NCBI GenBank assembly: GCA_013215505.1
Contig: JABSQZ010000007.1
Location: 1 to 64,000 of the forward strand
DNA length: 64,000 nt
Source: Oceanospirillaceae bacterium
GTDB taxonomy: Bacteria > Pseudomonadota > Gammaproteobacteria > Pseudomonadales > Balneatricaceae
Reading direction: 5' to 3'
In this document: positions 9,502 through 63,478 of the stretch, piece after piece
Numbering within the stretch: the first letter of the stretch is position 1
How the letters are laid out: every line of letters begins with the position of its first letter
Translations under genes and position numbers: made by a program
Notes under the pieces: generated by a model
Database searches by the model: none
What the model was told of the DNA's origin: nothing
The model's input: only the letters and a program-made list of their open reading frames with translations

Positions 9502-9605
9502 TAAGTCGTAAGTCGTAAGTCGTAAAAAGCTAGTCTTTTACTTGCAACTTACGACTTACGACTCACTACTCACTACTCACTACTCACTACTCACTACTCA
9601 CTACT
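9502..9605. repeat. heptanucleotide tandem arrays TAAGTCG (3) / inverted copy / CACTACT (6)
   Basis: Between two convergent stops lie three TAAGTCG units (9502-9522), an inverted copy of the same sequence (about 9547-9563), then six perfect CACTACT units (9564-9605) ending 3 nt before the stop of the leftward cyclase gene. On the sense strand of the rightward receptor the first array has AGT every 7 nt; the last array has AGT every 7 nt on the sense strand of the leftward gene. It belongs to the heptamer family found elsewhere in the window. Confidence 0.95.
9505..9563. terminator. long hairpin made by inverted heptamer arrays, likely bidirectional terminator
   Basis: AGTCGTAAGTCGTAAGT pairs perfectly over 17 bp with ACTTACGACTTACGACT; inside the loop GTAAAA and TTTTAC form another 6 bp. 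It lies between two convergent genes, 18 nt past the chemoreceptor stop. No strong T-run follows, so intrinsic termination is plausible but unproven. Confidence 0.55.
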
Positions 9606-9608
9606 TTG

Positions 9609-11015
9609 TCATCCTGTCTTTTTTTTGTCATAGAATTGATAGGCCCCCCGCCCCTCATTTTTAGCCTGGTACAAAGCGGCATCCGCTCTGCGCATCAGAT
9701 CATCAGGCTCCAATGCATCGTTAGGGTAAAAAGCGACCCCTATACTGGCGCCTGTATTTGTATCTGAGTCATTAAAGTGACAAGCCCAGGCGATGCCACT
9801 GATGATCTTTTCCAGGCGTATTTGAATCGCTTCAATGTCAGTGATATCCAGGGCAATGATAGCGAACTCATCCCCGCCCAGACGAGCGACAGTATCCTCT
9901 TCTCGAGTATGTTCCTTTAATACTTTAGCTGCCTCCTGCAACATTTTGTCTCCGGCTAAATGGCCGTATTGGTCATTGATCAATTTAAATTTATCCAGGT
10001 CGATGTAGAACACGGCAAATGCCTGTCCGGACAAAATCGCATTCTTGATCCCCGATTCAAGTTTTCTCGCAAACATGGCTCTATTTGCCAGGCCTGTTAA
10101 TGAATCCGTCATCGCCATAGCTTTTATCACGTTTTCATGCTGTTGCATGTCATCCAACATACGGTTTAAAGTGCTACTCATCACATCAATTTCAAAGCTA
10201 CTATGGGCGGGGGCCCTAGCCGCCTCATCACCTTGCTGCTGTTGCACCATAGTAGATTTGATGGCGCCAATAGGTTTTATTACCAACATGTCCAGAAATA
10301 AATAACAGAGTAATATCATTAAAGACACGCCAGTAAATGTGGTAGGTATAATTCTCCACACCAAAGAAAATATTTCCGCTTGGACTATCTGCTCATCAAA
10401 AGCGAATAGCACTGCTCCTACGTGATTGCCACTACTGATCACATCGTTTGCGACAATTGTCTTGGGACTGTTCAATGGCTCTTTAGCTGTGCCTGCTTCA
10501 GTCTGCTTTACCGATTTCAAACTGTCAGTTCCACGCGGATAAACATGTCCTGCATAAGGCCCTACATTGCTGGCACTGGTATGCGACAGATCATTTACAA
10601 CAGGTACAATACTAAACAGATAGTTATTTTCGACCCACCTGGCACTGGCGTTAGGGTCTTTTAACACGGATTTTGCGGCATGTTTTAACAACAGTGAAAT
10701 TTCTTTGGAATAGCTTTTGGTATGCACCTCGTAAATAGCTTCACTCCGATCTGCCGGCAGTATAATTAAAGTGCTGATGACCGGATTAGACAAGAGTATT
10801 TCTTCTGCAACGTGTTCTATCTCTTGCAGATTATCTGCAATCATGGAGCTGTGATGAATGGAACTTGTGAGTATTTTGGACCTTAACAACAGGTCAAGTT
10901 TAATCTCATTATTAGCTACCCGGTAGGTATCGAGGCTACCAAACACACCCAGAAACATAGTGCTCAGGATTAAATAAAAAATAAATTTTGTTCTTAATGG
11001 GCGCTTACTTGCCAT
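9609..11015 (-). CDS. membrane-anchored diguanylate cyclase
   Basis: A 468-residue protein with an N-terminal membrane helix (about 9-28), a periplasmic region of roughly 190 residues without a family I can name, a second helix (about 220-245), a HAMP-like linker and a C-terminal GGDEF domain (about 300-465). The active site LGGDEF is intact and is preceded at the canonical five-residue distance by an RxxD inhibitory site (REED), so an active, product-inhibited c-di-GMP synthase is expected. Its stop lies 3 nt from the CACTACT array. It stands alone, leftward, opposite the haem chemoreceptor. Confidence 0.9.
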   Translation of the reverse strand: MASKRPLRTKFIFYLILSTMFLGVFGSLDTYRVANNEIKLDLLLRSKILTSSIHHSSMIADNLQEIEHVAEEILLSNPVISTLIILPADRSEAIYEVHTKSYSKEISLLLKHAAKSVLKDPNASARWVENNYLFSIVPVVNDLSHTSASNVGPYAGHVYPRGTDSLKSVKQTEAGTAKEPLNSPKTIVANDVISSGNHVGAVLFAFDEQIVQAEIFSLVWRIIPTTFTGVSLMILLCYLFLDMLVIKPIGAIKSTMVQQQQGDEAARAPAHSSFEIDVMSSTLNRMLDDMQQHENVIKAMAMTDSLTGLANRAMFARKLESGIKNAILSGQAFAVFYIDLDKFKLINDQYGHLAGDKMLQEAAKVLKEHTREEDTVARLGGDEFAIIALDITDIEAIQIRLEKIISGIAWACHFNDSDTNTGASIGVAFYPNDALEPDDLMRRADAALYQAKNEGRGAYQFYDKKKTG

Positions 11016-11395
11016 CAGATTGGACCAAGGTGAAAGTGTTATTAGTTAACTCAATGGAATGCGACTACATGCAATCAGTATAGTAGTGAATACGATATCT
11101 GCACTTAACTGGAAGTTGGAAGTTGGAAGTTGGAAGTTGGAAGTTGGAAGTTGGAAGTTGGAAGCTAGCGTTGAATACTGTGGTTAAACTTGAATTTCAG
11201 TGGCGGGGCGAGGAAAACATGACATATTTAATATTTTCATCAGCGCCGTGTAGCTAAAGAGCTCCGCTGCGGGGTTCAACATTAGTGAATTACAGTAACT
11301 TCAGAGCTGCGCAGTAATCAACAGCCTAACCTTATGCCTATTTATCAAGTGCTTTTAGCGCTATATTCCTAAGCTCTGAGGTTAATAACTTTTTA
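11016..11395. other. intergenic region with heptamer array
   Basis: 380 nt between the cyclase start and the HAD hydrolase stop. It holds the GGAAGTT array at 11111-11165 and otherwise no gene or recognisable signal. Confidence 0.5.
11111..11165. repeat. heptanucleotide tandem array GGAAGTT, 7 copies plus partial
   Basis: Seven perfect GGAAGTT units from 11111 to 11159 are followed by a diverged last unit (GGAAGCT). The array is 95 nt upstream of the leftward diguanylate cyclase start and about 230 nt beyond the HAD gene stop, so unlike most other arrays it does not abut a 3' end. Confidence 0.95.
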
Positions 11396-12064
11396 TTAGC
11401 TGGAAAAATTAGCCGCGAAATTGAAGTCTAGTACATCGTCTATGCGCTGTAAGATAATATGCCCCAAGGCTAATAACTCATCATCCGCTGCCACTAAGTC
11501 AGGAATTTGCACGACTGTCATACCCGCAGCAAAGGCCGCTTTCACCCCATTTTTTGAATCTTCAAAAGCGAGACATGCAGCGGGAGCAACAGCCAATTGG
11601 GCGGCAGCTTTCAAGTAGATATCCGGTTGTGGTTTACTTTGCACTACCTGATCGCCACCCACTATAAAGGCAAAGTAATCAAGTATCCCCGAGTGACTCA
11701 ATTTCTCCCGCGCTCGCTGGGTTTTACTGGACGTTGCCACCGCCATCGGCATACCTTGTAACTGCAATTGCTTCAGCAACTTAGCAACCCCCGGCATTAA
11801 CGCTACCGGGCCACGACTGGTAGCCTTTAAATAAGCATTATCCCAGACCTGGACGAACTCGCTTAAAATGATTTTTGCGGGTAACTCGCTTTGTAAAATG
11901 CTTTTAGACAGTGCCATATTTGTGCCGATAAGGCGTTTAAAAAGCTCCGACATATCCCCTAATTTATACTGGGCACAAGTGCTCTGAAAAGTTTCAAGTG
12001 CTAACGTTTCACTGTCTATTAATAAACCGTCCATATCGAATATTACCGCTTTAAAATTATGCAT
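11396..12064 (-). CDS. HAD-superfamily hydrolase, phosphoglycolate-phosphatase-like
   Basis: A 222-residue HAD hydrolase, subfamily IA. Motif I is FDMDGLLIDSE (nucleophile Asp10, acid Asp12), motif II is the ATSS threonine/serine strand, motif III is the Lys in KPQPDIY and motif IV is FEDSKNG. A helical cap of about 60 residues lies between motifs I and II. Such enzymes dephosphorylate small sugar phosphates; the GLLIDSE opening is seen in beta-phosphoglucomutase and 2-deoxyglucose-6-phosphatase-like groups, but the substrate cannot be named. It starts 8 nt after the Coq4-like gene, so the two likely share an mRNA. Confidence 0.85.
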   Translation of the reverse strand: MHNFKAVIFDMDGLLIDSETLALETFQSTCAQYKLGDMSELFKRLIGTNMALSKSILQSELPAKIILSEFVQVWDNAYLKATSRGPVALMPGVAKLLKQLQLQGMPMAVATSSKTQRAREKLSHSGILDYFAFIVGGDQVVQSKPQPDIYLKAAAQLAVAPAACLAFEDSKNGVKAAFAAGMTVVQIPDLVAADDELLALGHIILQRIDDVLDFNFAANFSS

Positions 12065-12072
12065 AGCTTCCC

Positions 12073-12552
12073 TTATTCATAATCGAGTATTTTTAAATTA
12101 AATGTTTTACGCAGCTGATCCAATGGCGTGTCCATATAAGGCTGGTAGCCTTTAATTTGCCATTTACGACTCATGGTTCGAGAGCGTCGATAAATTTTTA
12201 ACAGTAGCGGTAGTCCACAAACAATGCTTTTCACTATATTGATAAAACCTATTTGTTTGATCAGCCGTTTGCCCTCGGGAGTATTCGCGTAAGCTAAATA
12301 CTCTTTAAAACTCAGGTCAGTGGCAAATAAGGTCCAATAGTCTGCGGCGGTCTCATCTAAAATACTGGTATTTACCCCAAAAAAGACGTGCCCTACATCG
12401 TGATGCACGAGTAACTCTGTCCATGGCGTTTCAGCTTCAGGTACACAAAAAAGCTCCGAGTTAATCGCATAAAACTCTGCCAGCGCCTCTCTGAGTGTCA
12501 ACTGACAATCCTGATCTTGAAAAGCAGCGACTTTTTCCCGGTTAAATTTCAC
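12073..12552 (-). CDS. Coq4-like protein with complete HDxxHx11E metal motif
   Basis: A 159-residue protein. Residues 51-67 read HDVGH, eleven residues, then Glu, exactly the HDxxHx11E zinc-ligand motif described for the ubiquinone-biosynthesis protein Coq4. A hydrophobic segment (about 104-120) and a basic C-terminal half follow. It is shorter than eukaryotic Coq4 (about 260 residues), as bacterial relatives often are. Coq4 has been assigned roles as a CoQ-complex scaffold and in an early ring decarboxylation step; whether this bacterial form acts on quinones is unknown. It sits upstream of the HAD hydrolase in an apparent two-gene operon. The motif match is clear; the functional transfer is inference. 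Confidence 0.6.
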   Translation of the reverse strand: MKFNREKVAAFQDQDCQLTLREALAEFYAINSELFCVPEAETPWTELLVHHDVGHVFFGVNTSILDETAADYWTLFATDLSFKEYLAYANTPEGKRLIKQIGFINIVKSIVCGLPLLLKIYRRSRTMSRKWQIKGYQPYMDTPLDQLRKTFNLKILDYE

Positions 12553-12761
12553 CTAATTAGTGCCATTTATTTGTTTAATGATTGATTGATTATAAACTCT
12601 TTCCAGCTTTGACAGCGACTGTAACGGAAAAGTTGCCCTTGCCAATAACCTATTTTCTCCCATGTGAATTTTACTGATCGCATGTTATAACTTTAGCGTT
12701 TTGCAGCTATTTTTTAATTTCAAATCCATTGGAAAACAACCTATAAGGTTATCGAGAATCA

Positions 12762-13499
12762 ATGAAACTGCTCAGGGTCATGTTAATCTCCGTTGCTATT
12801 CTTTATACCTGTAGTAGCCCTGCCCAGCAACACAGCAGTGCCTCAAACAATCCAAAACAAGTAGTTAAAGTCGCTCTGGGTGGTACTGGTCCACAGTCTC
12901 GAGTTTTCAGAATAGCGTCAAAGCTGCTAGCGGAAATCTCTAAACTCTCCGGGTTGAAACTGGAACTTGTTTACCTTCCCACCAGAAGAGCGACAGCCAA
13001 GCTGCTCAATGGGGCAGTGCATGCTGAGATGGCGCGCATTGCCAGCTATCGGCAACATGTCCCCAGTGCCATCATGATAACGGAATCAGTGGCGTCTCTG
13101 CCGGTGCATGTTTACACAGTAAATGCCGATTTTATAGTCGATGGCTGGAGCAGTTTAAAACCCTATACTGTACTACGTGTTCACGGCTGGCTTTACACCA
13201 GAAAAAACTTAGAACAACATCAATCTTTTACTGTAGTCACTCCGCTGGAGGGCTTTAGACTATTAGAGGCCCATAGAGCCGATGTATTTCCACTGGACAG
13301 CCTCAGCGCCGCAGGCTTATTGAGCCTACCTGAGTTTAAAGACACCCGCATAAAAAGACTGGAGCCGCCGGTACATATATTACATACCTATACTTTTTTT
13401 TCCGCTGATTATCCTCTGTTAGCCCAGCGCTATCAGAGTGCATTGATCAAGCTTAAGCAGCTGGGCATCTATCAAAAAATACTCAATGAGACACAATAG
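12762..13499 (+). CDS. periplasmic solute-binding protein, family 3-like
   Basis: A 245-residue protein with a signal peptide (MKLLRVMLISVAILYTCSSP, cleavage near residue 21). The mature part (VKVALGGTGPQSRVFR..., LKLELVYLPTRRATAKL..., a YPLLAQRYQSAL helix near the end) fits the small SBP_bac_3-type periplasmic binding fold often found as an orphan in gammaproteobacteria. No ABC permease is adjacent, so it may serve as a sensor input or be a stand-alone protein. Its last 13 codons lie in a tandemly duplicated segment; the downstream copy of its tail (about 13640-13678) is a decayed remnant. Confidence 0.7.
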   Translation: MKLLRVMLISVAILYTCSSPAQQHSSASNNPKQVVKVALGGTGPQSRVFRIASKLLAEISKLSGLKLELVYLPTRRATAKLLNGAVHAEMARIASYRQHVPSAIMITESVASLPVHVYTVNADFIVDGWSSLKPYTVLRVHGWLYTRKNLEQHQSFTVVTPLEGFRLLEAHRADVFPLDSLSAAGLLSLPEFKDTRIKRLEPPVHILHTYTFFSADYPLLAQRYQSALIKLKQLGIYQKILNETQ

Positions 13500-13728
13500 C
13501 GAGGCTGTAATGGCACATTACAACCAGCGCCTCACCTTAGCAGTAGTCGCTCGAGACATGTTGTTGAACCACACTCCTATAGCACTCAATAGCGTTTGAT
13601 TGCTCAGGCGATCAAGCACTCTTTATGCAATTAAAGTAGCTGGGTACCCATCCAAAAATACTCAATGAGACACAATAGCAAGGCTGTAATGGCACATTAC
13701 AACCAGCGCCTTACCTTAGCGCAGTAGT
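13461..13728. repeat. tandem duplication of a convergent gene junction (period about 179 nt)
   Basis: The segment 13461-13548 recurs at 13640-13728 with few differences. Each copy holds the last codons of the rightward binding-protein gene, its TAG, a TGTAATG-GCA-CATTACA hairpin (13506-13522 and 13685-13701) and the last codons of the leftward ICMT-like gene. The binding-protein gene uses the first copy and the ICMT gene the second; the inner tails are remnants. Confidence 0.85.
13506..13522. terminator. duplicated short hairpin at convergent stops (copy 1)
   Basis: A 7-bp perfect stem with a 3-nt loop, TGTAATG-GCA-CATTACA, 7 nt after the binding-protein stop. A second copy at 13685-13701 contains the stop codon of the ICMT-like gene. 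It is palindromic, so it could serve both directions; there is no clear T-run. Confidence 0.45.
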
Positions 13729-14164
13729 CACTATATTCGCCCTGGAATTTAGCGGCTAAATAGCGTTCTTCTCGCTCGATAGCGATATAAAAAACCGCTA
13801 CAGCGGCAACACCACTGAATAATATTATCCAAATATTGTTTAAAAATAAGCCCATAGCGATAGTAAAACAAATAAAAGCCACATAGATAGGATTTCGCGA
13901 CACTGCAAACACACCGCTATTTACGATATTTGAAGTCGGCTTCCAGGGCTCTATACTGGTCTTGGCGCGTTTAAGTGCGACAACAGCCCCCAAGATTAGT
14001 ACTAGAGCGCCCCCCAGAGGAAGTACAGCGAGATATGCTCTGCCTTCTAACAGCGTTAGCGACAGGGGCAGAGCCAGATTAAGCAAGTAACCAATAGCAA
14101 TGCAAATCCCGAAAATCAGCGGCGGAGGAAATTTTACCGCAGCACCTTTTTGATCTTTATCCAT
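13697..14164 (-). CDS. isoprenylcysteine carboxyl methyltransferase-like membrane protein
   Basis: A 155-residue protein with four to five membrane helices. The C-terminal half carries the ICMT/PEMT-like signature: SRNPIYVAF, then an EREERYLAAKFQGEY stretch and a YCAKVRRWL end. Enzymes of this fold transfer a methyl group from SAM to lipids or lipid-linked substrates; in bacteria the substrate is usually unknown. The last five codons and the stop lie inside the duplicated junction hairpin. It is divergent from the SDR gene, 44 nt away. Confidence 0.8.
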   Translation of the reverse strand: MDKDQKGAAVKFPPPLIFGICIAIGYLLNLALPLSLTLLEGRAYLAVLPLGGALVLILGAVVALKRAKTSIEPWKPTSNIVNSGVFAVSRNPIYVAFICFTIAMGLFLNNIWIILFSGVAAVAVFYIAIEREERYLAAKFQGEYSDYCAKVRRWL

Positions 14165-14208
14165 GTTATTCTCCTGCTCTGTTTATTCAAATTTAAGGGT
14201 TATAGATT

Positions 14209-14961
14209 ATGGCGTTAACTGGACATTATTTAATTACAGGGGCTGCCAGTGGTATTGGCGCCGCCACCGCAAAAAAAATTGCCGGTCCAAACTGCACCTT
14301 GATTTTGCAGACTAAATCTAACCTTCAGGGATTAGAGGAAATCGGCGAACAATGCCGCGCCAAAAGCGCTAAAGTCTTTATCCAGCAAGCTGACTTGACT
14401 GAGCAACAGCAAACCCAACAGTTAATTGACTTCACTCTGGCACAGACAGACTCTCTAGATGGCATAGTGGCTGCCGCCGGTTACCCCGACTGGGGAAACT
14501 TTGAAACATTAAGTTTGCATGAGCTGATGCAATCTGTGCATTTAATGCAGCAAAGTACTTTTATGTTACTGCAGCAATGCAACCGACAATTGCAGCACAG
14601 CAAAGGCAGTTTTATCGGTATCAGCTCGTTTCTGGCTCACAAGATGAAAGTGGGAAAAACCATCACCCCCGCTTCAGCAACCGCTAAAGCCGGCCTGGAA
14701 GCACTGATTAAATCGTATGCGATGCAATACGCCGCAGTTGGTATTCGCTGTAATGCCATAGTCCCCGGCTACATTAAAAAAGATGGCACCCAGCATCAAC
14801 CTATCAGCCCCGAAGCCAACGCGCAAATAACCGCCAGAATCCCCGCTGCCAGATTAGGTCTCCCGGAAGAAGTCGCGGCACTGGCGCAATTTTTATTGAG
14901 TTCACAAAGCCGTTACATCACCGGACAAATGTTACATATCGATGGTGGTTTACTGCTGTAA
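14209..14961 (+). CDS. short-chain dehydrogenase/reductase family protein lacking the catalytic Tyr
   Basis: A 250-residue SDR. The cofactor motif TGAASGIG (residues 10-17), the AAAGYPDWG stretch in place of NNAG and the GISS serine (139-140) are present, and the C-terminal SRYITGQMLHIDGGLLL is typical. The YxxxK pair, however, reads S156-A-T-A-K160: the Lys is kept and the Tyr is replaced by Ser. Classical SDR reduction needs that Tyr, so this is either a non-redox member or one using another acid. It is divergent from the ICMT-like gene, is followed by a 9-bp hairpin, and converges on the broken MOSC gene. Confidence 0.8.
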   Translation: MALTGHYLITGAASGIGAATAKKIAGPNCTLILQTKSNLQGLEEIGEQCRAKSAKVFIQQADLTEQQQTQQLIDFTLAQTDSLDGIVAAAGYPDWGNFETLSLHELMQSVHLMQQSTFMLLQQCNRQLQHSKGSFIGISSFLAHKMKVGKTITPASATAKAGLEALIKSYAMQYAAVGIRCNAIVPGYIKKDGTQHQPISPEANAQITARIPAARLGLPEEVAALAQFLLSSQSRYITGQMLHIDGGLLL

Positions 14962-14979
14962 CGACTTGCTAATAAACTG

Positions 14980-15002
14980 TAGCAGTTGATCGGCAACTGC
15001 TA
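14980..15002 (+). terminator. hairpin after the SDR gene
   Basis: TAGCAGTTG-ATCGG-CAACTGCTA, a perfect 9-bp stem with a 5-nt loop, begins 18 nt after the SDR stop. The following bases (TCTTG) are only weakly T-rich, so it is an imperfect intrinsic terminator. Confidence 0.55.
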
Positions 15003-15003
15003 T

Positions 15004-15210
15004 CTTGAAGCTATACTCAACAGTAGCGTACAGGCTCCTTTAGTTGTGCATTTTAGCCAACTAAGAACAGGGTAATAAGCGGTATGAGAAGGTCGCCAAC
15101 TTGTTCCTTGAAGCTAAACTCAATAGTAGCGTACGGACTCTTTTAGCTGTGCATCTCAGCCAGCTAAGGACTCGGGAATCAGCGGTATTAGACGATCGCC
15201 AACTTGGATC
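15004..15210. repeat. two adjacent ~103-nt direct repeats at the 3' end of the MOSC gene
   Basis: 15004-15106 and 15107-15210 are diverged tandem copies. The second holds the real end of the leftward MOSC gene (VGDRLIPLIP...LAG, stop 15156); the first, downstream on that strand, is a remnant reading VGDLLIPLI. Both contain a hairpin: TTAGCTG/CAGCTAA at 15143-15167 and TTAGTTG/CAACTAA at 15040-15064. The difference between the stems is compensatory. Confidence 0.85.
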
Positions 15211-15668
15211 TCGCCGCTATGTATTATCTTCGCGCACAGGCCGCCGTGGCCAAGCATTGCAGCGACAGTCCCAGGACCGATATCGCGATCCATCCGCGAA
15301 CAGGGATGGCATTGTGCTGTCGCCTCAAACAGCGCCTCACCAATGCTAAATTGCTGATGACGCAACGCGTTGAGATTGATGCCTCGCACTACTAAATTTC
15401 GTCGCAGCAGCGCCGGATCTATTCTATCCCTGAAGCTGTATTTTTCGATCAGTTGAATAGACTCCTCGCTGATAATAGTCACCTGACGTGCCGAGCCCGG
15501 CGTTTTTAAACAGCGATGATCGCCTTCAAGGCCTAAATTTTCTAGCGCCATGACTGAATCTACACTCAGTACCGGTTACTTTCTTGAGGGGCGTAACCCA
15601 ATCCAGGTCAATGTTCCCGGTCTCAGGTCTTTAAGATAGCGAGCAAATAAATTACGCTGTATTGACAT
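15156..15668 (-). pseudogene. MOSC-domain protein interrupted by one in-frame TAA
   Basis: The ATG at 15666-15668 follows an excellent GAGGGG site. The frame reads 30 codons (ending TWIGLRPSRK), then TAA at 15576-15578, then continues in the same frame with PVLSVDSVMALENLGLEGD and a full MOSC domain: QVTIISEES, DPALLRRNLVVRG, and the QCHPCSRM cysteine segment that carries sulfur-molybdenum ligands in the family. WIGLRP-x-R plus GLEGD is the normal MOSC opening, so the TAA sits inside conserved sequence. Only one base change would restore the gene. Re-initiation at the ATG of codon 40 could yield an N-terminally shortened protein. It is preceded by flavin reductase, 32 nt away. Confidence 0.85.
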
Positions 15669-15700
15669 ATTTCCCCTCTAAAAATCAATCACCCAGCTTG

Positions 15701-16306: not shown

Positions 16307-16333
16307 GCTTTAACCTGATAAAATTATGAGTAT

Positions 16334-17569: not shown

Positions 17570-17571
17570 TT

Positions 17572-29012: not shown

Positions 29013-29054
29013 ACTCAGCTATATATCAACACCGCTGCATACAAATAACACTAC

Positions 29055-29109
29055 TCGCTACTTCCGACTTCCGACTTCCGACTTCCGACTTCCGACTTCC
29101 GACTTCCGA
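29055..29109. repeat. heptanucleotide tandem array CTTCCGA, 7 copies
   Basis: Seven perfect CTTCCGA units (29061-29109) are preceded by a CTACTCG-like unit, 43 nt or more after the pit stop. On the plus strand it reads ACTTCCG, so it is the one array near a 3' end whose AGT form is antisense to the preceding gene. Confidence 0.95.
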
Positions 29110-29228
29110 CTGTTTTATACGCACATCTCCCCCCTGTGAGCTATAGTTTTGTTTATATACAACAAAGTCAGTAACCCGAGTTCAAGGGATAAGTCTATTA
29201 TTTTCATCAGCACAGGGAACAGCTAATT

Positions 29229-33029: not shown

Positions 33030-33220
33030 CACCATCCCTGTAAATTACTGATCCATAATCCGTCAGTGAACAATACCACAATGAATATTGTTGAACTGAA
33101 ATCAGCAAGATAAAAACCCCACTAACATAAGTAAACAACCCATTGCTAATGAAGTTGCAACCTTAGCAGAAGACCACCCAAACAATCATTAACACCATAA
33201 TCTTGGCCTGACCTAACTCA

Positions 33221-33307
33221 CAACTTCCAACTTCCAACTTCCAACTTCCAACTTCCAACTTCCGACTTACTACTCGCTACTCGCTACTCGCTACTCACTA
33301 CTCACTC
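33221..33307. repeat. compound heptanucleotide array CAACTTC (6), CTACTCG (3), CTACTCA (2)
   Basis: Six CAACTTC units (33221-33262), one hybrid CGACTTA, three CTACTCG and two CTACTCA units follow each other in register, so the 7-nt period is kept while the unit changes. On the minus strand, sense for the umuD remnant, it reads AGT every 7 nt, and the remnant's homology to UmuD ends exactly where the array begins. Confidence 0.95.
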
Positions 33308-33529
33308 CGTCATTGACCTGGGCTGCTCTGGAGACAATTAACATGTCAGCTGAAAAATCCCGAAGCCCTGCATAGAATCACCTTCGGCAAAACACAGATA
33401 AGTGGCTTCTGGGTGTGCTACTAAGTACTGATCAAGATTTAAATTCGATTGGCTGTATTGTGCTGCGGGTGATTCACAGCGGGTCATGCCACACTGGGCA
33501 CGAGTAAGAAAACTTTTAACATGCGACAA
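33307..33529 (-). pseudogene. umuD: truncated, frameshifted umuD-like gene (SOS polymerase V subunit)
   Basis: From a TTG start at 33529 the product reads ESPAAQYSQSNLNLDQYLVA, then HPEATYLCFAEGDSMQGFGI: the UmuD N-terminal region with the cleavage-site neighbourhood and the catalytic Ser of GDSM. After GIF the frame breaks at a five-T run (33353-33357); in the next frame FSADMLIVSRAAQVNDGV continues the UmuD fold. At about residue 72 similarity stops where the heptamer array begins. The catalytic Lys and the second half are missing and no umuC is nearby. A LexA box still lies 8 nt upstream. Confidence 0.75.
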
Positions 33530-33536
33530 CCATACA

Positions 33537-33552
33537 CTGTGTTTATATTCAG
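33537..33552 (-). promoter_or_regulatory. LexA (SOS) box upstream of the umuD remnant
   Basis: CTGTGTTTATATTCAG matches the consensus CTG-N10-CAG and agrees with the ideal gammaproteobacterial LexA site at most positions. Flanking bases (TACA on the left, TATA on the right) extend the dyad. It ends 8 nt upstream of the umuD-like start, the expected place for SOS control. Confidence 0.75.
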
Positions 33553-33746
33553 TATATGGTGGATTTATTCAGGGTCAAACCTATATTGGCTCTGCGGCAT
33601 AAAATACATGTCCCTTAGCGAACTGTTGCAAATTACCGACCATGCATATGTGAATTTCTTGATACGTCTGTTATTGGACACACTGATAAATATTCTATAA
33701 ATCCCGTACTATCATTTGCCAACATTCAATCTTAACGGAGTTAAAC

Positions 33747-33998
33747 ATGACTGTTAAAATTTATAATTATGCTCTGAAGTACCTCATTGATAGTGATGGC
33801 ATACAACCTAAAGCGTATTCTTCTGAAGTAGAACCTTATACTGGAGACGTAATTGAGCTGGATACTGGCGACTACCACTGCGTGGTAAAAATCAATCGTC
33901 TGAAAGCGACCAACCAGCTGATACTCTCTGAACCGGCAACCTCCCATGACGAGGCATTTCGCTTAGCTTCTCAATCTGGACATCTGAGCGAACTGTAG
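33747..33998 (+). CDS. small acidic protein of unknown function, 83 aa
   Basis: ATG at 33747 follows CGGAG at suitable spacing. The product (TVKIYNYALKYLIDSDG..., TGDVIELDTGDYHCVVKINR, ATSHDEAFRLASQSGH) looks like a compact alpha/beta domain with a normal residue mix and codon use like its neighbours. I recognise no family. It is isolated, just outside the pseudogene cluster, with a large empty region downstream. Confidence 0.6.
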   Translation: MTVKIYNYALKYLIDSDGIQPKAYSSEVEPYTGDVIELDTGDYHCVVKINRLKATNQLILSEPATSHDEAFRLASQSGHLSEL

Positions 33999-37474: not shown

Positions 37475-37556
37475 AAGTTGGAAGTTGGAAGTTGGAAGTT
37501 GGAAGTTGGAAGTTGGAAGTTGGAAGTTGGAAGTTGGAAGTTGGAAGTTGGAAGTT
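37475..37556. repeat. heptanucleotide tandem array AAGTTGG, about 11 copies
   Basis: The longest array in the window: eleven consecutive AAGTTGG (= GGAAGTT) units with no mismatch, starting 3 nt after the TDT transporter stop. The sense strand of that gene carries the GGAAGTT form. Confidence 0.95.
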
Positions 37557-37644: not shown

Positions 37645-37668
37645 CAGCCACTTCCCACTTTCCACTTC
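37645..37668. repeat. degenerate heptamer array directly after the SDR stop
   Basis: On the minus strand the stop TAG of the SDR gene is followed at once by GAAGTG, GAAAGTG and GGAAGTG units: three diverged heptamers of the same family, again with AGT on the sense strand. Together with 37475-37556, both convergent genes carry their own array. Confidence 0.7.
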
Positions 37669-38484
37669 CTACTGACTTGCGGTAATACCGCCGTCGACAT
37701 ATAAGGTTTGTCCGGTGACAAAATCGGAGGCCGGTGAACAGAAAAAATTAGCCGGGCCAACAATATCTTTGGGGTCGGCAATGCGCCCCAGTGGAATCCG
37801 CTTCAGCAAATTTTCTCTGAACTCTTTGTTTTCCATAACGTGACGAATCATTTCTGTATAAACAAAAGTCGGCGCAACGCCGTTAACTGTAATATTGTGC
37901 GGTGCCAATTCCATTGCGTGCTGCTTGATTAATAAAACCAAGCCGCCTTTGGTGGAACAATAAGCAGAGTAGCCTCTGTCCCGTAAACCCAGCTGTGAAC
38001 GAACTGAAAGTAAGTGCACTTGTTTACCGCCATTACCCGCTTTTATCTGATGCTTCGCCACCGCTTGGGCCAGGAACATCGAAGCCTTCAAGTTCACCTG
38101 ATAGACTTCATCAAATGCTTCTTCGGTAACTTCTAGCAACGATTCTTCGCGCTGAATACCGACACAATTCATCAAAATATCAAGGTTGCCAAAGTAGTCG
38201 ACCACTGCGTCGACACTATGGTGTATTTGCTCTACTGATTTAACATCCACTGCAACGCCAAAAGCTTCATATCCAGCGGCGTTTATTTTCTGAGCCAGCT
38301 TGTTGGCTTTTTCAAGGTCACGTCCGCCGATAGCAACTTTTGCACCAGCACAAGCTAAACCCCAGGTAATGGCCTCGCCTATCCCACCGTAACCCCCTGG
38401 GATATATGCAACTTTTCCGGCTAAGTCGAATAAGCCTTTGAGTTCACTTTTAAAATCGATCACTGGTTCTATTTTATCAACCAT
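37669..38484 (-). CDS. short-chain dehydrogenase/reductase, last gene of the leftward catabolic operon
   Basis: A 271-residue SDR with a modified cofactor loop (GGYGGIGEA), the NCVG strand, the Ser of LLSVRSQ and the catalytic YCSTK, then the C-terminal DFVTGQTLYVDGG. It resembles sugar/polyol dehydrogenases such as gluconate 5-dehydrogenase or the 2-keto-3-deoxy type. It is 14 nt downstream of another SDR in an operon with a branched-chain-type ABC importer, so it probably oxidises the imported polyol or a derivative. The exact substrate is unknown. Confidence 0.88.
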   Translation of the reverse strand: MVDKIEPVIDFKSELKGLFDLAGKVAYIPGGYGGIGEAITWGLACAGAKVAIGGRDLEKANKLAQKINAAGYEAFGVAVDVKSVEQIHHSVDAVVDYFGNLDILMNCVGIQREESLLEVTEEAFDEVYQVNLKASMFLAQAVAKHQIKAGNGGKQVHLLSVRSQLGLRDRGYSAYCSTKGGLVLLIKQHAMELAPHNITVNGVAPTFVYTEMIRHVMENKEFRENLLKRIPLGRIADPKDIVGPANFFCSPASDFVTGQTLYVDGGITASQ

Positions 38485-48781: not shown

Positions 48782-49588
48782 ATGAGTTATCTAAAAGTAC
48801 AACCGACAACACCCAATGCAGATGGGCGAGTGCAATGTATCACTCCGCAATCGGCTAACTGGCCACACGTAGGTTTTGAGTTATTCCACATGCAAGCGGG
48901 CGCTAGTTTAAGCAGAAATACTGAAGACAAAGAAGTGTGCCTGGTATTAGTAACCGGCAGTGCCACAGTCCAGGCAGGCGAGCAAACTTATGAAAACATA
49001 CAGAGCCGGGATAATATTTTTTCCGGCGCACCGGCAGCTGTATATATCCCAAGCGATTCTAATTTCACAGTAACCGCTGGCGACAATTTAACCTTGGCGG
49101 TTTGCAGCGCTCCCGGTAAAGGAACTTATCCAGCGAGACTTATTACACCGCAAGAGATGGGAACAGAAACACGCGGAGAAGGCTCCAACATACGCCACGT
49201 TTGCAACATATTGCCCGATACCGCCGAGGCTGATAGCTTACTGGTTGTCGAAGTCATTACCCCTGCGGGCAACAGCTCAAGTTACCCTCCGCACAAACAC
49301 GATGTCGATAATCTGCCGTGCGAAACTCAATTAGAAGAAACTTATTATCATCGTTTTAACCCGCCGCAAGGTTTTGGCTTTCAACGCGTCTATACCGACG
49401 ACCGATCACTGGATGAGAGCATGTGTATTGAAGATGGTGATGTGGTGATGGTACCCAGAGGCTATCACCCTGTGGTTGTCCCGCACGGATACGACTTATA
49501 TTATTTGAATGTGATGGCCGGACCGGTTCGAGCATGGCATTTTCAAAACGACCCGGAGCATGATTGGATTGTGAATCCGCAGACTTGA
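48782..49588 (+). CDS. iolB: 5-deoxy-glucuronate isomerase
   Basis: A 268-residue cupin-type enzyme that converts 5-deoxy-glucuronate to 5-dehydro-2-deoxygluconate, the step before IolC. Family stretches include SSYPPHKHD (metal-binding histidines), the Glu of QLEETYYHRFNPPQGF and the VPRGYHPVV His, ending with AGPVRAWHFQNDPEHDWI. GGAGGT sits right before the ATG region (GTGGAGGTTAA-ATG). It is the last gene of the rightward rpiR-iolC-iolB operon, and a GGAAGTC array begins 15 nt after its stop. Confidence 0.94.
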   Translation: MSYLKVQPTTPNADGRVQCITPQSANWPHVGFELFHMQAGASLSRNTEDKEVCLVLVTGSATVQAGEQTYENIQSRDNIFSGAPAAVYIPSDSNFTVTAGDNLTLAVCSAPGKGTYPARLITPQEMGTETRGEGSNIRHVCNILPDTAEADSLLVVEVITPAGNSSSYPPHKHDVDNLPCETQLEETYYHRFNPPQGFGFQRVYTDDRSLDESMCIEDGDVVMVPRGYHPVVVPHGYDLYYLNVMAGPVRAWHFQNDPEHDWIVNPQT

Positions 49589-49603: not shown

Positions 49604-49645
49604 GGAAGTCGGAAGTCGGAAGTCGGAAGTCGGAAGTCGGAAGTC
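49604..49645. repeat. heptanucleotide tandem array GGAAGTC, 6 copies
   Basis: Six perfect GGAAGTC units begin 15 nt after the iolB stop, with AGT on the iolB sense strand, in the gap between iolB and a convergent VOC-family gene. Confidence 0.95.
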
Positions 49646-49758
49646 GCCAGCAGAGGATACACGAGATAAAAATGTGAGAACAAGTTTAGTGGGCTTATGT
49701 AGCATCTGCGACAGCTGCACTTTTCAACGCAGCTACCGCGCTTAAGTTACCCCACTAG

Positions 49759-53647: not shown

Positions 53648-53662
53648 GCGCAGGGAAGATGC

Positions 53663-53701
53663 GAATAAGTCCGTGGCATCTAAAGATTCCCCGACTTATT
53701 C
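53663..53701. promoter_or_regulatory. stem-loop between flavoprotein and giant kinase genes
   Basis: GAATAAGTC and GACTTATTC form a perfect 9-bp stem with a 21-nt loop, 15 nt after the flavoprotein stop and 73 nt before the kinase start. There is no T-run; it could be a weak terminator or a leader structure that separates expression of the two units. Confidence 0.45.
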
Positions 53702-53774
53702 ACTTGTTCTCCCGGCACAGGGAAGTGCTACAGCTGTTTTGCAGAATATTTAATAGCTTCAAGGTAAGATAAAA

Positions 53775-56700: not shown

Positions 56701-59700
56701 GGGCCAGCACTTATTTTTTATACGCCACTTTCACTCATCACTGGAACAAACCACTGCAGCAGTCAGTGCCTTTCTTTGAACGCAGTTACGATCTGGCACT
56801 GCAATCCGGTGACCTGGCAACACTAGGCTATATCTGCGCCGTTCGCGCCAGTGACTCACTGGCTCTGGGTGCTGATTTAAGCATTACTGAACAGCATTTG
56901 TCCCGGGAGATAGAACTACTGCAAAAACACCGCCAACAAGATATGAGTGACTGTGTCCGGGTAGGCGCCCTGCAGTCAATCAAAGGCTTGTTAGGGTTAA
57001 CTAATAACTTGCAAACTTTCGATGACTCGCAGTTTAGCGAACAAGAATTTCTCAGTGACTACGCGCAGGCACCACTGCATCTAGCTTATTATTACAGTGC
57101 TAAAATCCGTCATGCCTACCTGACCCACGACACTCGCGAGCAACAGCTATCTTTACTAAACCATAGTGAAACGGTTTTTGCCTATGTACCCGGGCAAAAT
57201 AAAATTCCCGAGTGCGGGTTTTACAGCGCCCTGATTATGTTGCGTTTTGCCTCTGACGAATCCGACATCTTGTACATTCAAGCACAGCAATATTTGCAGC
57301 AGTTAGCGGGATGGTCAACTTATTGCAAGGCAAATTTCGAACATAAACACCTGTTATTAAAAGCAGAATCGGCGCGAGTCAGAGGTGAGCACGCCAACGC
57401 AGTGGACTTTTATACAGAGGCAATTGAGCAGGCAAAACAATACCAATACGAAAATGTTCTGGCCGTTGCCAACGAGTGCTTCGCAGATTTTTGGCGGGTG
57501 CAAAATAAATCAGAGATAGCCAAAAGTTTTATCATCAGCGCCTATAATGCCTTTGCCCAATGGGGTGCTGTGGCTAAATTACAGCAGTTGCAAAGTCAGT
57601 GGTTTAATGTAAATTTTGACTTTCAAGCAATTGGCAGCGCAGACCGACAACCCGATCAAATTAACTTGCAAACGGTGCAGGACCTAAACCAGTTAATCTC
57701 CAGGGAATTAGATCTAGAGCATTTATTAGAAAAGTTAATGCTTATCTTGCTGAAGAATGCCGGTGCCGACTGGGGCTGTTTGGTACAAGTAAACCAGGGG
57801 GAATTACTGCTGCAAGCGGCTGGCGATAAAGATTCTATCAAAGTACTACTCAACCAGCACTTGTCCACTGCGCCTGCGAAAAAGATGCTGCCTGAAAGCA
57901 TTATCCAATATGTCTTGGACAACCCACAACTGCAAGTATTGAACCGCCCTTTTGAACTCACAGAATATGGTCAAGATGGATACTTTGAGCACAAGCAACC
58001 GCTTTCTGTGGCTTGTATGCCGGTGATACATCAAGCTAAAACCATTGCCATTGTCTATCTTGAAAACCAATTAATAGAAAATGCCTTTGGCCAACGGCAT
58101 ATTTCACTGCTAAATGTTATCGCCTCTCAAGCTGCGGTATCGCTATCCCACGCCTTTCTCTATCAAAGTTTAGAGAGGAGAGTGGTGCAACGCACCACAC
58201 AACTGGCGCAGGCAAAACTTAAAGCGGAACAGGCAACTTTTGCTAAATCTAACTTCCTGGCTAATATGAGTCACGAAATTCGCACCCCAATGAATGCAGT
58301 CATAGGCTTGAGCCGCTTAGTGCAACGCACTGAATTGACCTTGGAGCAAGATGACTATGTGACCAAGATTATCGATGCATCTGAATCGCTATTGAGCCTG
58401 ATTAATAATATCTTAGACTTTTCCAAAATTGAGGCACGTAAACTGGCCATCGAAGAGATCAGTTTTGATTTAACCGAATCGTTTCAGCGAGTGATTAATA
58501 TTTGCGGCCACAAAGTACAGCAAAAATCTCTCGAGTTTGTCATCGATATAGCGGCAGATGTTCCCACTGGGCTGATTGGAGACCAGCTGAGATTGCAGCA
58601 AATTCTGATAAATCTGATCAACAATGCCATTAAATTTACCGATAGTGGCAGTGTTTTACTCAAAGTAGTAAAAGGCGAACAGCAGCAATCACAATGTGAA
58701 TTGCAATTTTCTATTAGCGACACAGGCATAGGTATCAGCGAACAAGAGCAACGGCAACTGTTCAATTCCTTTTATCAGGGCGATGCCTCCAGCACCCGAA
58801 GATACGGAGGCACCGGGCTGGGCTTAGCTATCAGTAAAGAATTAGCTGAATTAATGGGCGGCAACATCCATGTTCAGAGTAAACTTAGAGAGGGAACTAG
58901 CTTCACTTTTAGCGCCAAATTTAGACTCAGTGAGCAACAGCAACCCGTGACCGAATTAGATACAGCTGCTATCCGTGCCCTGAAAGTTTTAGTGGCGGAC
59001 GATAGTACACTGGCCAGAGATGTGCTGGTAAAAGTATTGGCTGATCAGGGAATCATCGCGGACAGTGTCGTAAACGGACAGCAGGCGCTGCAACAGGTAG
59101 TCGCTGCAGATCGCGCAGAACAGCCTTACGACTTAGTAATATTAGACTGGAAAATGCCGCAAATGGATGGCATAACCACCGCAGAGCAAATCAGAGACCA
59201 GCTACAACATCAGCCTAGTCTTTTTCTACTGGTTTCGACCTATGACAAAGATGAGGCCAAGGCACTGGGCAGTGATGCTCGGGTGCAACGCTTCATTGAG
59301 AAACCTCTCAACCCCGTCACTTTAATTAACGCCATTAATAGTTTAGTGACCACGGGTAGCGCAACTGTTGCAGCGCAGAAGACGGCTAAGCTTAGTATTC
59401 CGGACCTCAGCCAATACAGAATACTGTTAGTTGAAGACAATGAAATCAATCAGCAAGTCGCTAAAGGTTTTCTAGCTGACACTTTAGTCGAGGTTGAAAT
59501 CGCCGAAAATGGCGAAGTCGCACTGGAGAAAGTACATAGTCAACATTTTGATTTAGTGCTTATGGATATTCAAATGCCAGTCATGAATGGCATCACTGCC
59601 GCCCGGGAGATCAGATCCTCTATAAGCGCGCAACAGTTGCCCATCATAGCGATGACCGCCCACGCGTTTCAAAGTGATGCCCAATCGAGCTTTGATGCGG

Positions 59701-60452
59701 GAATGAACGCCCACATCACTAAGCCTATCGAGCCGGAAATACTCTATAACACTCTTAGTAACTTTTTAAAATCTAATCGCAAGATAAACGCGAGTGTCAA
59801 TATGCACTTGTTCAGTGCGACTGAAACTGAGCTTATTATATTGACCCAGTTAAGTGATATAAAGCAGTTGGAGATTGAAAAATCTGTTGAGCGACTGCAG
59901 GGAAAGGTCAATTTATATTTATCATTGGTTGAAGATTTTTGGTATAAGAACCGCTCTACCAGTAAACTTATCAACAAGCTATACGCCAAACAGCAGTGGA
60001 AGAAATTATTTTTAATGGTCCATTCACTCAAATCTACCGCTCAATACATTGGCGCTAAAGCCCTGGCTAAATATGCACTGCAGCTGGAAGAGCAAATTGA
60101 GCAACAGCATCAATCGCTGCTGCGACCGGTCAGTTTTCTGACCGGACAATTGGATGACTTAATGGACCAATTAGACAGCCTATACAGTATAGAAACTCAA
60201 CCGGCGAATTATAAAGATATAGATAAACCGCAGTCTCTGCGGTTGATCAAAACGCTGCGAGAATTATTGAGCAATGCAGATGCGGAGGCTGAAAGTTATT
60301 CTAAGCAACTCTATGAGTTGGCCAGTGGCAGCGAGTTTGCAGTGGTTATTGAGACTATTCACTTTTTAATTTGCGACTTTGAGTTTGAAACTGCACTCGT
60401 AAAAATTGATCAGCTAGCACGGAGCATAAGAGAGACGGACAATGGACACTAA
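53775..60452 (+). CDS. giant hybrid sensor kinase: Ser/Thr-kinase-like, AAA, TPR-like, GAF, histidine kinase, 2x receiver, HPt
   Basis: A 2225-residue single protein. Order: Ser/Thr-kinase-like domain (1-275; [10 protein letters not shown] replaces HRD, TDLSL replaces DFG, so probably inactive), AAA ATPase (about 300-560; YGRESEV, Walker A GYSGVGKS at about 326, DDLQWAD), a long helical TPR-like region (about 700-1280), GAF (about 1295-1450), HisKA with His1500 in [10 protein letters not shown], HATPase ([24 protein letters not shown]), receiver 1 with Asp1791, receiver 2 with Asp1931, and HPt with His2083 in VHSLKSTA. No membrane helix is found, so it is cytoplasmic. The full phosphorelay can end on the receiver of the diguanylate cyclase whose gene overlaps by 11 nt. 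Confidence 0.93.
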
Positions 60453-61407
60453 TCTGCATCTGCTGCAGCGACGAGCTGCTGAAAAGAAATACAGCATTTT
60501 ATGTATTGATGACGAAACCGCTAATTTAAAGGTGCTGTCTTCGCTACTTAAAGATGATTATCGGGTGATATTGGCGAAGTCAGCCGAGCAGGGAATGGCT
60601 AAAACCTTGGAGCTGTTGCCAGATTTAATTATTTTAGATGTGGTGATGCCACAGATGACCGGCTTTGAAATGATTGAACATTTTAAAAATAACCCAGTCA
60701 CCGCCCATATACCGGTCATTTTCATTACGGGTTTGCAAAGTGTTGAAAATGAAGAGAAAGGCCTACTATTGGGCGGTTGCGATTATATTCATAAGCCTTT
60801 TCATCACAGTATTATTCGCGCCAGAGTAAAAAACCAAATTGAAATTGTCAGGCAGCGAAATCTATTGGAGCATATTGCCAATATAGACAGCCTCACCGAG
60901 TTGAACAACAGGCGAAAATGGATTCAGGATACTGACAATATCTGGCTTTCAGCACAGTTACATAATACCCAAATGGTATTTGGCATTTTAGACATAGACC
61001 ACTTTAAGAGTTACAACGACTCCTATGGCCACCAGCAGGGCGATATCGCCCTGAGAAAAATATCTCATGCGTTAAAGCGCTCCATGTTCGAACACCAGGG
61101 GAAAATATATCGCTGTGGCGGTGAGGAATTTTATTTCTATTTACCGGCTAACAATAAAAAAATACAACGGGTACTCGATCATTACATAAGTGTGATTAAT
61201 GAGTTAAACATTGAACATACACACTCGAGGACGGCACCTAGAATTACCGTCAGTATAGGTGCAGTACAACTAGTGCCAAATACTGATATTAATCTGCTGA
61301 TGGTCATGGAACAGGCAGACAAACTACTCTACCAGGTAAAAAGAGGCAGCAGAAACGCGGCAAAATATACGGCCATTCCCAGTCTGATCAATTCAGGCAG
61401 TAATTAG
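60442..61407 (+). CDS. response-regulator diguanylate cyclase (REC-GGDEF)
   Basis: A 321-residue protein: receiver domain (about 17-135; acidic pair in CIDDE, phospho-Asp66 in ILDVVMP, Lys in HKPF) and a GGDEF domain (about 148-310) with the active site CGGEEF intact. The RxxD inhibitory site expected five residues upstream is absent, so product inhibition may be missing. The gene overlaps the giant kinase gene by 11 nt, which makes it the natural phosphorelay output: phosphorylation would switch on c-di-GMP synthesis. Confidence 0.92.
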
Positions 61408-61627
61408 CCACCGTAGATCCGGGTGAACAGTGTTAGGCGTCAAGTATAAATATTTCTGACGAAGTATTTTGTCGCTGAAAATTTCATCATTGCCAGGGTT
61501 AAAACCTGTCGAGAAAACACTGGACTTTCCCGGGTATTCCCCAATACTATTCCTCGTTTAAAGAGCATTTTTGGTCGCTGTACTTTCTGTTCGAATAACA
61601 ACCTAACAACCCAACAGAGGAGAGCCT

Positions 61628-62548
61628 GTGGACTCTATCATCAGTATAAAAAACCTTTTTAAATCCTATGAATCGGGGTTTAAAGCATTAAATGACATTA
61701 ATCTAGAGATTAAGCGCGGGGAAATTTTTGCCCTGTTAGGCCCTAATGGCGCGGGTAAAACCACTCTCATCAGCATTATTTGCGGCATAGTTAATCCCAG
61801 CCAAGGTACAATCACAGCCGATGGTCACGACGTTATTCGCGATTACCGGGCGGCCCGCAGCAGAATCGGTTTGGTCCCCCAAGAGCTGACTACCGATGCT
61901 TTTGAATCTGTCTGGGCTACCGTCCGTTTCAGCCGCGGTTTGTTTGGCAAGGCACCAAATGATGCCTATCTGGAAAAATTATTAAAACAACTGTCGCTCT
62001 GGGATAAAAGAAACTCCAAAATGCGCGAGCTCTCCGGTGGCATGAAACGTCGGGTAATGATCGCCAAAGCACTCTCCCATGAGCCGGAAATTCTGTTTTT
62101 AGATGAACCTACCGCCGGAGTTGATGTGGAACTGCGCCGCGATATGTGGGAAATGGTCCGTGAACTTCGCGAGCGCGGCGTCACGATATTGTTAACCACC
62201 CACTACATCGAAGAGGCCGAGGAGATGGCGGACCGCATTGGAGTGATTAATGGCGGGCAGATAATTTTAGTCGAAGAAAAAACCGCACTGATGCAAAAGC
62301 TCGGTAAAAAGCACTTGCAGGTGCAGTTGCAGCAACCCATTACTGAGCTTCCCGATTCCCTGCAAAGCTTCAACCTTGAACAATCCAAAGACGGTTACAG
62401 TTTGACTTATAGCTTTGATGTTAAGCAGGAAGATAATGGCATCGCTGCATTACTTGAGAAGTTAGCCAGCGCCAACTTACATGTAAAAGACCTGCATTCG
62501 TCAGAGAGTTCGCTGGAAGAAATCTTTGTAAATTTAGTAAAAAGTTAA
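61628..62548 (+). CDS. yadG: ABC exporter ATPase (YadG-like)
   Basis: A 306-residue ATPase beginning with GTG (61628) after GAGGAGAG. Walker [11 protein letters not shown]-loop LVPQE, signature [14 protein letters not shown], Walker [13 protein letters not shown] and switch TTHYIEEAE are all normal for ABC-2 type exporters. A C-terminal extension of about 90 residues is typical of this group. It is followed after 16 nt by its permease. It closely resembles the YadG/YadH pair, whose cargo is not known. The 220 nt upstream carry no recognisable gene. Confidence 0.88.
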
Positions 62549-62564
62549 CCTTTGAGGACAAAAC

Positions 62565-63326
62565 ATGAATTGGTATGGCATGAAGGCTATTTATTATTTT
62601 GAAATGGCCAGAACCTGGCGAACCTTAATGCAGAGTATTGCCTCTCCGGTATTATCTACTTCTTTGTATTTTGTGGTTTTTGGCTCGGCCATAGGCTCGC
62701 GAATGGGAGATATTGACGGTATCAGTTACGGCGCGTTCATTATTCCCGGTTTAGTGATGTTGTCGCTGTTGAGCCAGAGCATCTCCAACGCCTCTTTCGG
62801 CATATTTTTCCCCAAGTTTTCCGGCACTATTTACGAGGTACTGTCAGCACCCGTGTCGCCTTTTGAGATAGTGGTTGGCTACGTTGGGGCCGCGGCGACT
62901 AAGTCTATCGTGTTGGGGTTAATCACCTTGGCCACCGCCAAAATCTTTGTTGATTACACCATTCTACATCCGTTGTGGATGTTAGCTTTTCTGGTGTTAA
63001 CTTCAGTCACTTTTAGTTTGTTTGGCTTTATTATCGGCATCTGGGCGGATGATTTTCAAAAGCTACAAATTATCCCACTGATGATTATCACTCCACTGAC
63101 TTTTTTAGGCGGCGCTTTTTACTCTATCAGCATGCTCCCTGAACCTTGGCAATCACTGACATTGTTTAATCCTGTGGTCTATCTGATCAGCGGTTTCAGA
63201 TGGTCTTTCTATGGGGTTGCGGATGTAAGTATTGGCGTCAGCTTAGCAATGACAGGGTTGTTTTTGGCCCTGTGTATGGCGGGCACTTACTGGATATTTA
63301 AGACCGGCTATAGACTCAAGTCTTAA
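62565..63326 (+). CDS. yadH: ABC-2 type exporter permease (YadH-like)
   Basis: A 253-residue membrane protein with six helices and the ABC-2 family features: N-terminal [20 protein letters not shown], central [20 protein letters not shown] coupling region and the [16 protein letters not shown] extracellular segment before the last helices. It is co-transcribed with the ATPase gene upstream. A heptamer array lies in the convergent gap after it. Confidence 0.88.
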
Positions 63327-63408
63327 ACTCACAGCCACGGCGCGGGCGCTACTTTTACAGCTACCGCGCTGTGTATTTTCATTCCCTCTCACCACTCACA
63401 ACTGACTA

Positions 63409-63478
63409 GCTACTTGCTACTTGCTACTTGCTACTTGCTACTTGCTACTCGCTACTTGCTACTCACGACCCGCTACTC
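63409..63478. repeat. heptanucleotide tandem array GCTACTT/GCTACTC, about 9 units
   Basis: Eight contiguous units (63409-63464; six GCTACTT, two GCTACTC), one interrupting ACGACCC, then another GCTACTC. It ends 5 nt before the stop of the leftward LpxR-like gene, whose sense strand reads AGTAGCA or AGTAGCG repeats. Confidence 0.95.

Follow-up and report, generated by a model that had tools for sequence, protein, structure and literature searches.

The window analysed here (C52:1-64000; 64,000 nucleotides (nt) of the 5.73-Mb genome of an Oceanospirillaceae bacterium in 52 contigs, hereafter G000) contains a family of tandem heptanucleotide arrays whose units share an AGT phase. Across the genome these arrays have a constant period and motif, sit just past stop codons with near-absolute sense polarity, and keep their positions while their units turn over. 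The explanation that we tentatively put first is that they are lineage-specific AGT-N-G-N-R microsatellites whose growth is biased by transcription; close to it, in second place, stands a reading in which they act as barriers to antisense transcription.

Strand polarity at gene 3' ends

Arrays were scored in 1.634 Mb of the 5.73-Mb genome (2734 N), with genes called by a simple hexamer caller that misses some of them. From 99 arrays of at least four units, four inside genes and five without a neighbour in their stretch were removed, leaving 90 intergenic arrays. In 53 of the 90 the distance to a gene 3' end is at most 20 nt, and every one of these 53 reads sense with respect to a gene that it abuts. 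Counted as contacts within 20 nt of a stop, sense outnumbers antisense by 53 to 2 (p 8.6e-14); both antisense contacts are made by sense arrays wedged between two convergent stops, which touch the opposite gene's stop as well. The strand bias that an earlier note had described from the window alone thus holds beyond it. The ratio falls to 58:17 within 50 nt and to 60:33 within 100 nt, and the rule thus depends on close contact. The other 37 intergenic arrays (14 tandem-antisense, 12 divergent, 6 tandem-sense, 5 convergent) have no sense bias, and the polarity that the earlier note had proposed is therefore confined to arrays at 3' ends. The four of 99 arrays that overlap genes by midpoint are all sense and lie at or near the gene's 3' end; since so few overlap genes and 53/90 intergenic ones abut 3' ends, phase-variation repeats were rejected as an account. 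Eight of the 90 arrays lie within 50 nt of a start, with 6/90 sense and 2/90 antisense upstream of one.

The polarity is 39:1 when stop-overlapping arrays are dropped and 50:3 with a second, cruder gene caller, and units free of stop codons keep it (AGTTGGA 15:0, AGTCGGA 9:1), so an artefact of stop codons was discarded. Within convergent gaps, 38/41 arrays are closer to their sense gene, and with G skew as strand marker the G-rich strand of AGT arrays near stops is on the coding strand by 44:2. In eight convergent gaps both strands carry arrays, and each array is sense to the gene on its own side; fork direction therefore cannot set the polarity, which rules out a replication-strand bias. The view of one family with a shared phase, oriented by gene direction, is supported. 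A prior base bias behind stops is likewise insufficient for 53:2, since at 985 array-free 3' ends AGTNG occurs 146 times sense and 151 times antisense, though other motifs there lean sense (AGTNGNR 78:56, AGT 741:614, AGTN4AGT 24:9), perhaps as decayed arrays.

In 10 of 11 non-AGT arrays that abut 3' ends the G-rich strand is the sense strand; these arrays come from four of the seven genomes examined (G000 5:0, G035 3:0, G006 1:0, G003 1:1; the other three none), and at least four of the ten sense arrays are AGT-mixed. Few as they are, these arrays share the polarity, which suggests that strand composition may outweigh AGT. The polarity may thus be that of the G-rich strand, in line with what has been published for Xanthomonas (Rehm et al. 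2015, PMC4692102).

Period, phase and unit composition

A detector blind to AGT found 100 period-7 arrays in 1.63 Mb, compared with 0-8 at each of eight other periods. Of these 100, 96 are intergenic and 81 are AGT-phased (four of the 81 inside called genes); the remaining 19 are all intergenic, some of them AGT-mixed and some built of other units. Unit composition is thus not random with respect to AGT. Over the whole 5.73 Mb the pattern (AGTN4)x4+AGT has 443+606 matches and its reverse 22+41, while the stricter AGTNGNR form has 362+505 (867) and its reverse 2+1 (3). In 0.864 Mb, no trinucleotide is kept at period 7 as often as AGT/ACT (58 runs of at least four; AAG/CTT is next with 38), and AGT/ACT runs number 0-2 at each of six other periods.

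The unit had been described as AGT-N4. AGT is indeed kept, and so is more: the consensus over the 99 arrays is AGT-H-G-K-R, that is AGT, then C/T/A, G (661/719 units), G/T/C and A/G. The dominant units are TGGA (28), CGTA (20), CGGA (17), AGGA (7), AGTA (5) and AGCG (5). Variants that have been amplified fall at the N positions (65, 48 and 38) far more than at A, G, T and the fifth-position G (0, 3, 15 and 4), whereas singleton variants (n=22) are more evenly spread (2, 2 and 3 at AGT; 6, 1, 3 and 5 after it; p 0.009 for the difference). This spread fits a dependence of amplification on the AGT..G core, though the singletons are few.

Arrays in the window

Every array listed in the earlier note was found again by Tandem Repeats Finder and direct reading, and all match AGT-N4. 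They are as follows.

9502..9525, + strand: TAAGTCG, 3.4 units; sense, 15 nt past the stop of a chemoreceptor gene (7789-9486, +)
9540..9605, - strand: AGTAGTG/AGTCGTA-type array with AGT on the - strand; sense, 3 nt past the stop of a GGDEF gene (9609-11015, -)
11110..11164, + strand: AGTTGGA array; between two - strand genes and antisense to both
29053..29111, - strand: AGTCGGA array; antisense, 40 nt past the stop of a phosphate transporter gene (gene end 29012, +)
33216..33306, - strand: AGTTGGA, AGTAGCG and AGTAGTG-type units; sense, downstream of a umuD-like remnant
37475..37556, + strand: AGTTGGA, 11.7 units; sense, about 4 nt past the stop of a SLAC1-family transporter gene (gene end 37471, +)
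37648..37673, - strand: degenerate AGT array; overlaps the stop of an SDR gene (37669-38484, -)
49604..49646, + strand: AGTCGGA array; sense, 15-18 nt past the iolB stop (48782-49588, +)
63405..63477, - strand: AGTAGCA/AGTAGCG array; sense, about 20 nt past the stop of an LpxR-family gene (63484-63963, -, within the window)

Two exceptions to the polarity had been recognised, and both stand: the array by the phosphate transporter (pit) gene is antisense at 29053..29111, 40 nt past the stop, and the 11110..11164 array abuts no 3' end, being 237 nt from the stop of the upstream gene and 98 nt from the start of the downstream one. The arrays had also been called perfect and placed 0-18 nt after stops. 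The first description needs correction for the array at 9502, which has just 3.4 perfect units, and the second for the umuD-like remnant, whose in-frame stop is about 35 nt from the 33216 array while a second in-frame stop overlaps it. That remnant (33300-33760, - strand) ends soon after a GDSM-like motif, and the frames upstream are interrupted; the label umuD-like comes from a motif and from the earlier note. It was missed by the gene caller, so the 33216 array was scored as divergent. Elsewhere in the window, a 103-bp unit stands in two tandem copies at 15004-15206, with 83% matches; they extend over the end of a short open reading frame on the - strand (ORF; 15156-15551).

Folding and effects on the transcript

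The two facing arrays at 9502 and 9540..9605 form a strong predicted hairpin (RNA 9487-9605, -29.8 kcal/mol, z -5.6), which raises the improbable alternative of a bidirectional intrinsic terminator, with the AGT array of one gene and the ACT array of its convergent neighbour pairing into one long hairpin. Opposite-strand pairs no more than 120 nt apart do run AGT then ACT in 9/9 cases, eight of them in convergent gaps and six with a gap of 6-15 nt. Against it, in 25/33 convergent gaps with arrays only one strand carries them, and paired arms often have different units, so that pairing would be partial. Moreover, in a simple scan, terminator-like hairpins follow 8/53 arrays and 105/929 array-free ends (p 0.38). 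Being about as frequent behind arrays as behind other stops, terminators are neither replaced nor excluded by them, and the earlier suggestion of intrinsic termination in the sense direction finds no support here; arrays that lie before a terminator should be transcribed.

Sense polarity and closeness to stops might also reflect a role in mRNA. The sense (AGUNGNR)n could serve as a ladder in the 3' untranslated region, with CsrA or another protein bound to it or a G-quadruplex (G4) folded from it, and so steer decay or 3' processing; we consider this unlikely. A csrA gene is present in the genome, and 27/53 abutting arrays contain at least four GG. On the other side, 26/53 contain fewer than four GG and 22/53 fewer than two GGA, so that GGA, on which a CsrA ladder had been proposed, is not common to every element. 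Units also differ between orthologous loci, some non-AGT arrays have the same polarity, and folding of two single arrays, for one of which both strands were tried, gave no more structure than shuffled sequences did.

Gap context and antisense transcription

With array length subtracted from gap length, abutting sense arrays occur at 26/212 3' ends in convergent gaps shorter than 100 nt and at 10/252 in those of 100 nt or more (p 0.0014); the corresponding values for tandem gaps are 4/353 and 13/444. Short convergent gaps differ from short tandem ones (p 1.7e-8), whereas long gaps of the two kinds do not differ (p 0.51). Altogether 41/90 intergenic AGT arrays are in convergent gaps, where arrays on opposite strands of one gap co-occur (8 gaps, odds ratio 10, p 7e-5).

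Rho loads on C-rich, G-poor, unstructured RNA, and silencing antisense transcription is one of its main tasks. The arrays could, at second rank among the explanations and with considerable doubt, be polar barriers to antisense transcription that resemble Rho utilisation (rut) sites: Rho would load on the antisense RNA and the arrays would insulate close convergent genes, and any unit of such composition would serve, so that units turn over while place and strand stay. On the antisense strand, the 53 abutting arrays (median 52 nt) have on average 37% C, 8% G and a folding energy of -0.02 kcal/mol per nt, and C exceeds G in 53/53, compared with 393/851 array-free 3' ends (-0.19 kcal/mol per nt). 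Antisense array RNA thus fits the composition expected of rut sites, being C-rich, G-poor and unstructured, but the AGTNGNR formula dictates this, and the match is a consistency and not an independent test. The concentration in short convergent gaps (26/212 versus 10/252 in long ones and 4/353 in short tandem ones), the co-occurrence on both strands there, the retention of positions as units are exchanged between relatives, and a full-length Rho encoded in the genome (707 bits) all point the same way. The barrier account is weakened by the 17/53 abutting arrays at tandem 3' ends and by the lack of a difference between long convergent and long tandem gaps. It also sits uneasily with accounts of other repeats, in which Xac transcripts start or stop at repeats more for G4-forming ones, with either strand transcribed, and Nostoc repeats lean to the non-coding strand (PMC4692102).

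A second, short Rho-like gene lies outside the window (G000:C7:64364-65248; 317-aa frame) and matches the 415-position Rho model over positions 116-411 only; its product would therefore probably be without the N-terminal RNA-binding part. Such matches are present in 6/7 genus genomes, array-rich or not, with none in G004. As its presence is unlinked to array richness, this gene was rejected as a partner of the arrays and gives the barrier account no support.

Relatives and turnover of the arrays

The G003 contigs and the stretches of G019, G034, G035 and G041 were picked for bearing arrays, and their counts, like the conservation of positions with G003 given below, are therefore small and conditioned on that choice. 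In G003 (293 kb, 25 AGT-phased arrays), sense contacts outnumber antisense ones by 12 to 2 within 20 nt and by 13 to 7 within 50 nt. Contacts within 20 nt are 4:0 in G019, 2:1 in G035 and 1:0 in G034; G041 and G006 have none in range.

G003 DNA is about 77-90% identical to G000 in syntenic blocks. Of the gaps that could be tested and that hold an array in at least one of the two genomes, 6/6 hold it in both, although one of the six (against L199) aligns poorly around the array. The alignments show units swapped while strand, phase and place stay. At C1:664057, CGTA/CGTC types face TGGA in G003, whose contig ends there; at C16:9395, CGTA faces AGTA plus TGGA; at C12:129362 the unit is unchanged and copy number alone differs. 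The closest named relative found by the iolB protein is the Osedax symbiont Rs2 (Oceanospirillaceae bacterium; 91% identity), which has AGTTGGA units at the place of the window's iolB array, its contig terminating inside the array directly after the iolB stop. In another relative, G002, an array is also present at the place of 37475..37556, where the G002 contig begins inside it, while the small array at 37648-37673 is missing from the corresponding place. Counts of three-unit words (AGTTGGA versus AGTCGTA: 416:78 in G000, 52:15 in G002, 143:5 in G003) are merely suggestive of a genome-wide change to one unit in G003, which we do not adopt. Contigs L221, L239, L197, L192 and L091 of draft relatives also end inside AGT arrays, several of them at gene ends orthologous to array-bearing ones, and arrays thus seem to break assemblies.

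A mobile or directionally inserted element aimed at gene ends is very improbable. A few units do recur at many loci, and the short flank CTTGAGCGCATAAAA is found three times near arrays (3 exact copies in 1.63 Mb, all intergenic, at C1:273707, C1:391564 and C12:36104; two within 120 nt of a detected array, the third beside an AGT array at C1:391609). However, no dispersed flank family is tied to the arrays: masked sequence is shared with other gaps by 15/86 array gaps and 139/992 array-free gaps, which leaves a dispersed larger element unsupported as well. Positions are also common with G003 in the 6/6 testable gaps, though one small array is missing in G002.

AGTNGNR arrays occur in 17/116 genomes of the family and the reversed pattern in 21; in a sample of the class, each occurs in 13/229. 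Because the reversed pattern is as common, a universal AGT code was rejected, and the AGT core is, judged from these sequence counts, lineage-specific. Another genus of the family (G034, G035; stretches L219 and L201-L206) is rich in other heptamers, such as CCCGTCA, TTACGGG and ATTGGTA; four other periods yielded no more than one array each.

Discussion

In the microsatellite explanation, slippage in 7-nt steps would enlarge and homogenise arrays, with the AGT..G core required. Growth would be favoured behind the stop codon, where ribosome-free, G-rich RNA exits the polymerase; this RNA could re-anneal to the template as an R-loop, leaving the G-rich non-template strand exposed. Selection would remove arrays from coding sequence, promoters and operon-internal gaps. 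Arrays would thus flag transcription that runs past translation, and a function of their own would be unnecessary. Consistent with this, the 53:2 polarity is set by gene direction even with two arrays in one gap, period 7 is favoured by other units too (19/100 arrays, some AGT-mixed), amplified variants spare the core while AGTNG is unbiased at array-free stops, arrays are scarce in short tandem gaps (4/353), and in 10/11 non-AGT arrays next to 3' ends it is the sense strand that is G-rich. A comparable rule with a different G-rich unit has been described in Xanthomonas (PMC4692102).

Several points weigh against this explanation. By itself it would not lead one to expect more arrays in short convergent gaps (26/212 versus 10/252, p 0.0014), where positive supercoils from converging polymerases should disfavour R-loops. 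Retention of place despite full replacement of units could mean selection. Polarity is weaker in G003 (12:2 within 20 nt, 13:7 within 50 nt), and between aligned ORFs in Nostoc 34% of repeats are on the opposite strand and 18% on the same strand (PMC4692102). A reading that combines slippage with barriers we regard as less probable than either: heptamer arrays would be recurrently evolved, self-renewing, sequence-tolerant polar barriers, with slippage supplying them, selection keeping the rut-like ones and Rho shielding packed convergent genes, and with Xanthomonas and the present family as separate inventions.

Like rut sites, the arrays are C-rich, G-poor, unstructured and tens of nt long, here on the antisense strand and as judged from composition; to our knowledge, known rut sites are not tandem heptamers. 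Cyanobacterial heptamer repeats are named STRR, and no polarity of theirs to gene 3' ends is known to us. Tandem heptamers in Calothrix are cited in PMC4692102, which itself describes GGGAATC and GGGGA(C/T)T heptamers in Xanthomonas and Nostoc. As here, those arrays are genome-wide and mainly intergenic, and many in Xanthomonas lie on the coding strand no more than 50 bp from a stop, with few between divergent genes; Xanthomonas has 70-75 inverted repeat pairs, and between Xcc and Xac position is 83% conserved and length variable. The statement in the earlier note that no such family was known in gammaproteobacteria therefore does not hold, and sense polarity at 3' ends is not new in kind. The systems differ in other respects. 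The unit there is GGGNATC or GGGGA(C/T)T, G4-forming and preferred in four copies, whereas here it is AGTNGNR and 26/53 arrays have fewer than four GG; 16% of Xanthomonas and 11% of Nostoc repeats lie between convergent ORFs, compared with 41/90 here; a second preferred site there (PMC4692102) is on the non-coding strand, up to 50 bp ahead of starts, compared with 2/90 antisense and 8/90 near a start overall here; and polarity here is near-absolute within 20 nt of stops. The TAACTGA repeats of marine Beggiatoaceae (MacGregor 2015, PMC4679880) are likewise abundant, gene-oriented intergenic heptamers of a gammaproteobacterium, at which some contigs end. They stand just upstream of starts, and related heptamers are seldom repeated; the present units are combinatorial and lie at 3' ends, with 6/90 arrays sense within 50 nt upstream of a start.

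Among the matches listed, and at the level of titles and abstract openings, other literature mentions neither heptamers with an AGT phase nor any repeats from Osedax symbionts and their relatives. In the literature searched we found no description of the AGT unit family, of a near-absolute rule or of arrays concentrated in short convergent gaps. The near-absolute orientation at gene ends means that the repeats are subject to some process that senses which way transcription runs, and the abundance of heptamers in some bacteria becomes a testable question of transcription-coupled slippage or an antisense barrier. If the arrays are barriers, simple repeats would be a cheap, self-renewing insulation of convergent genes.

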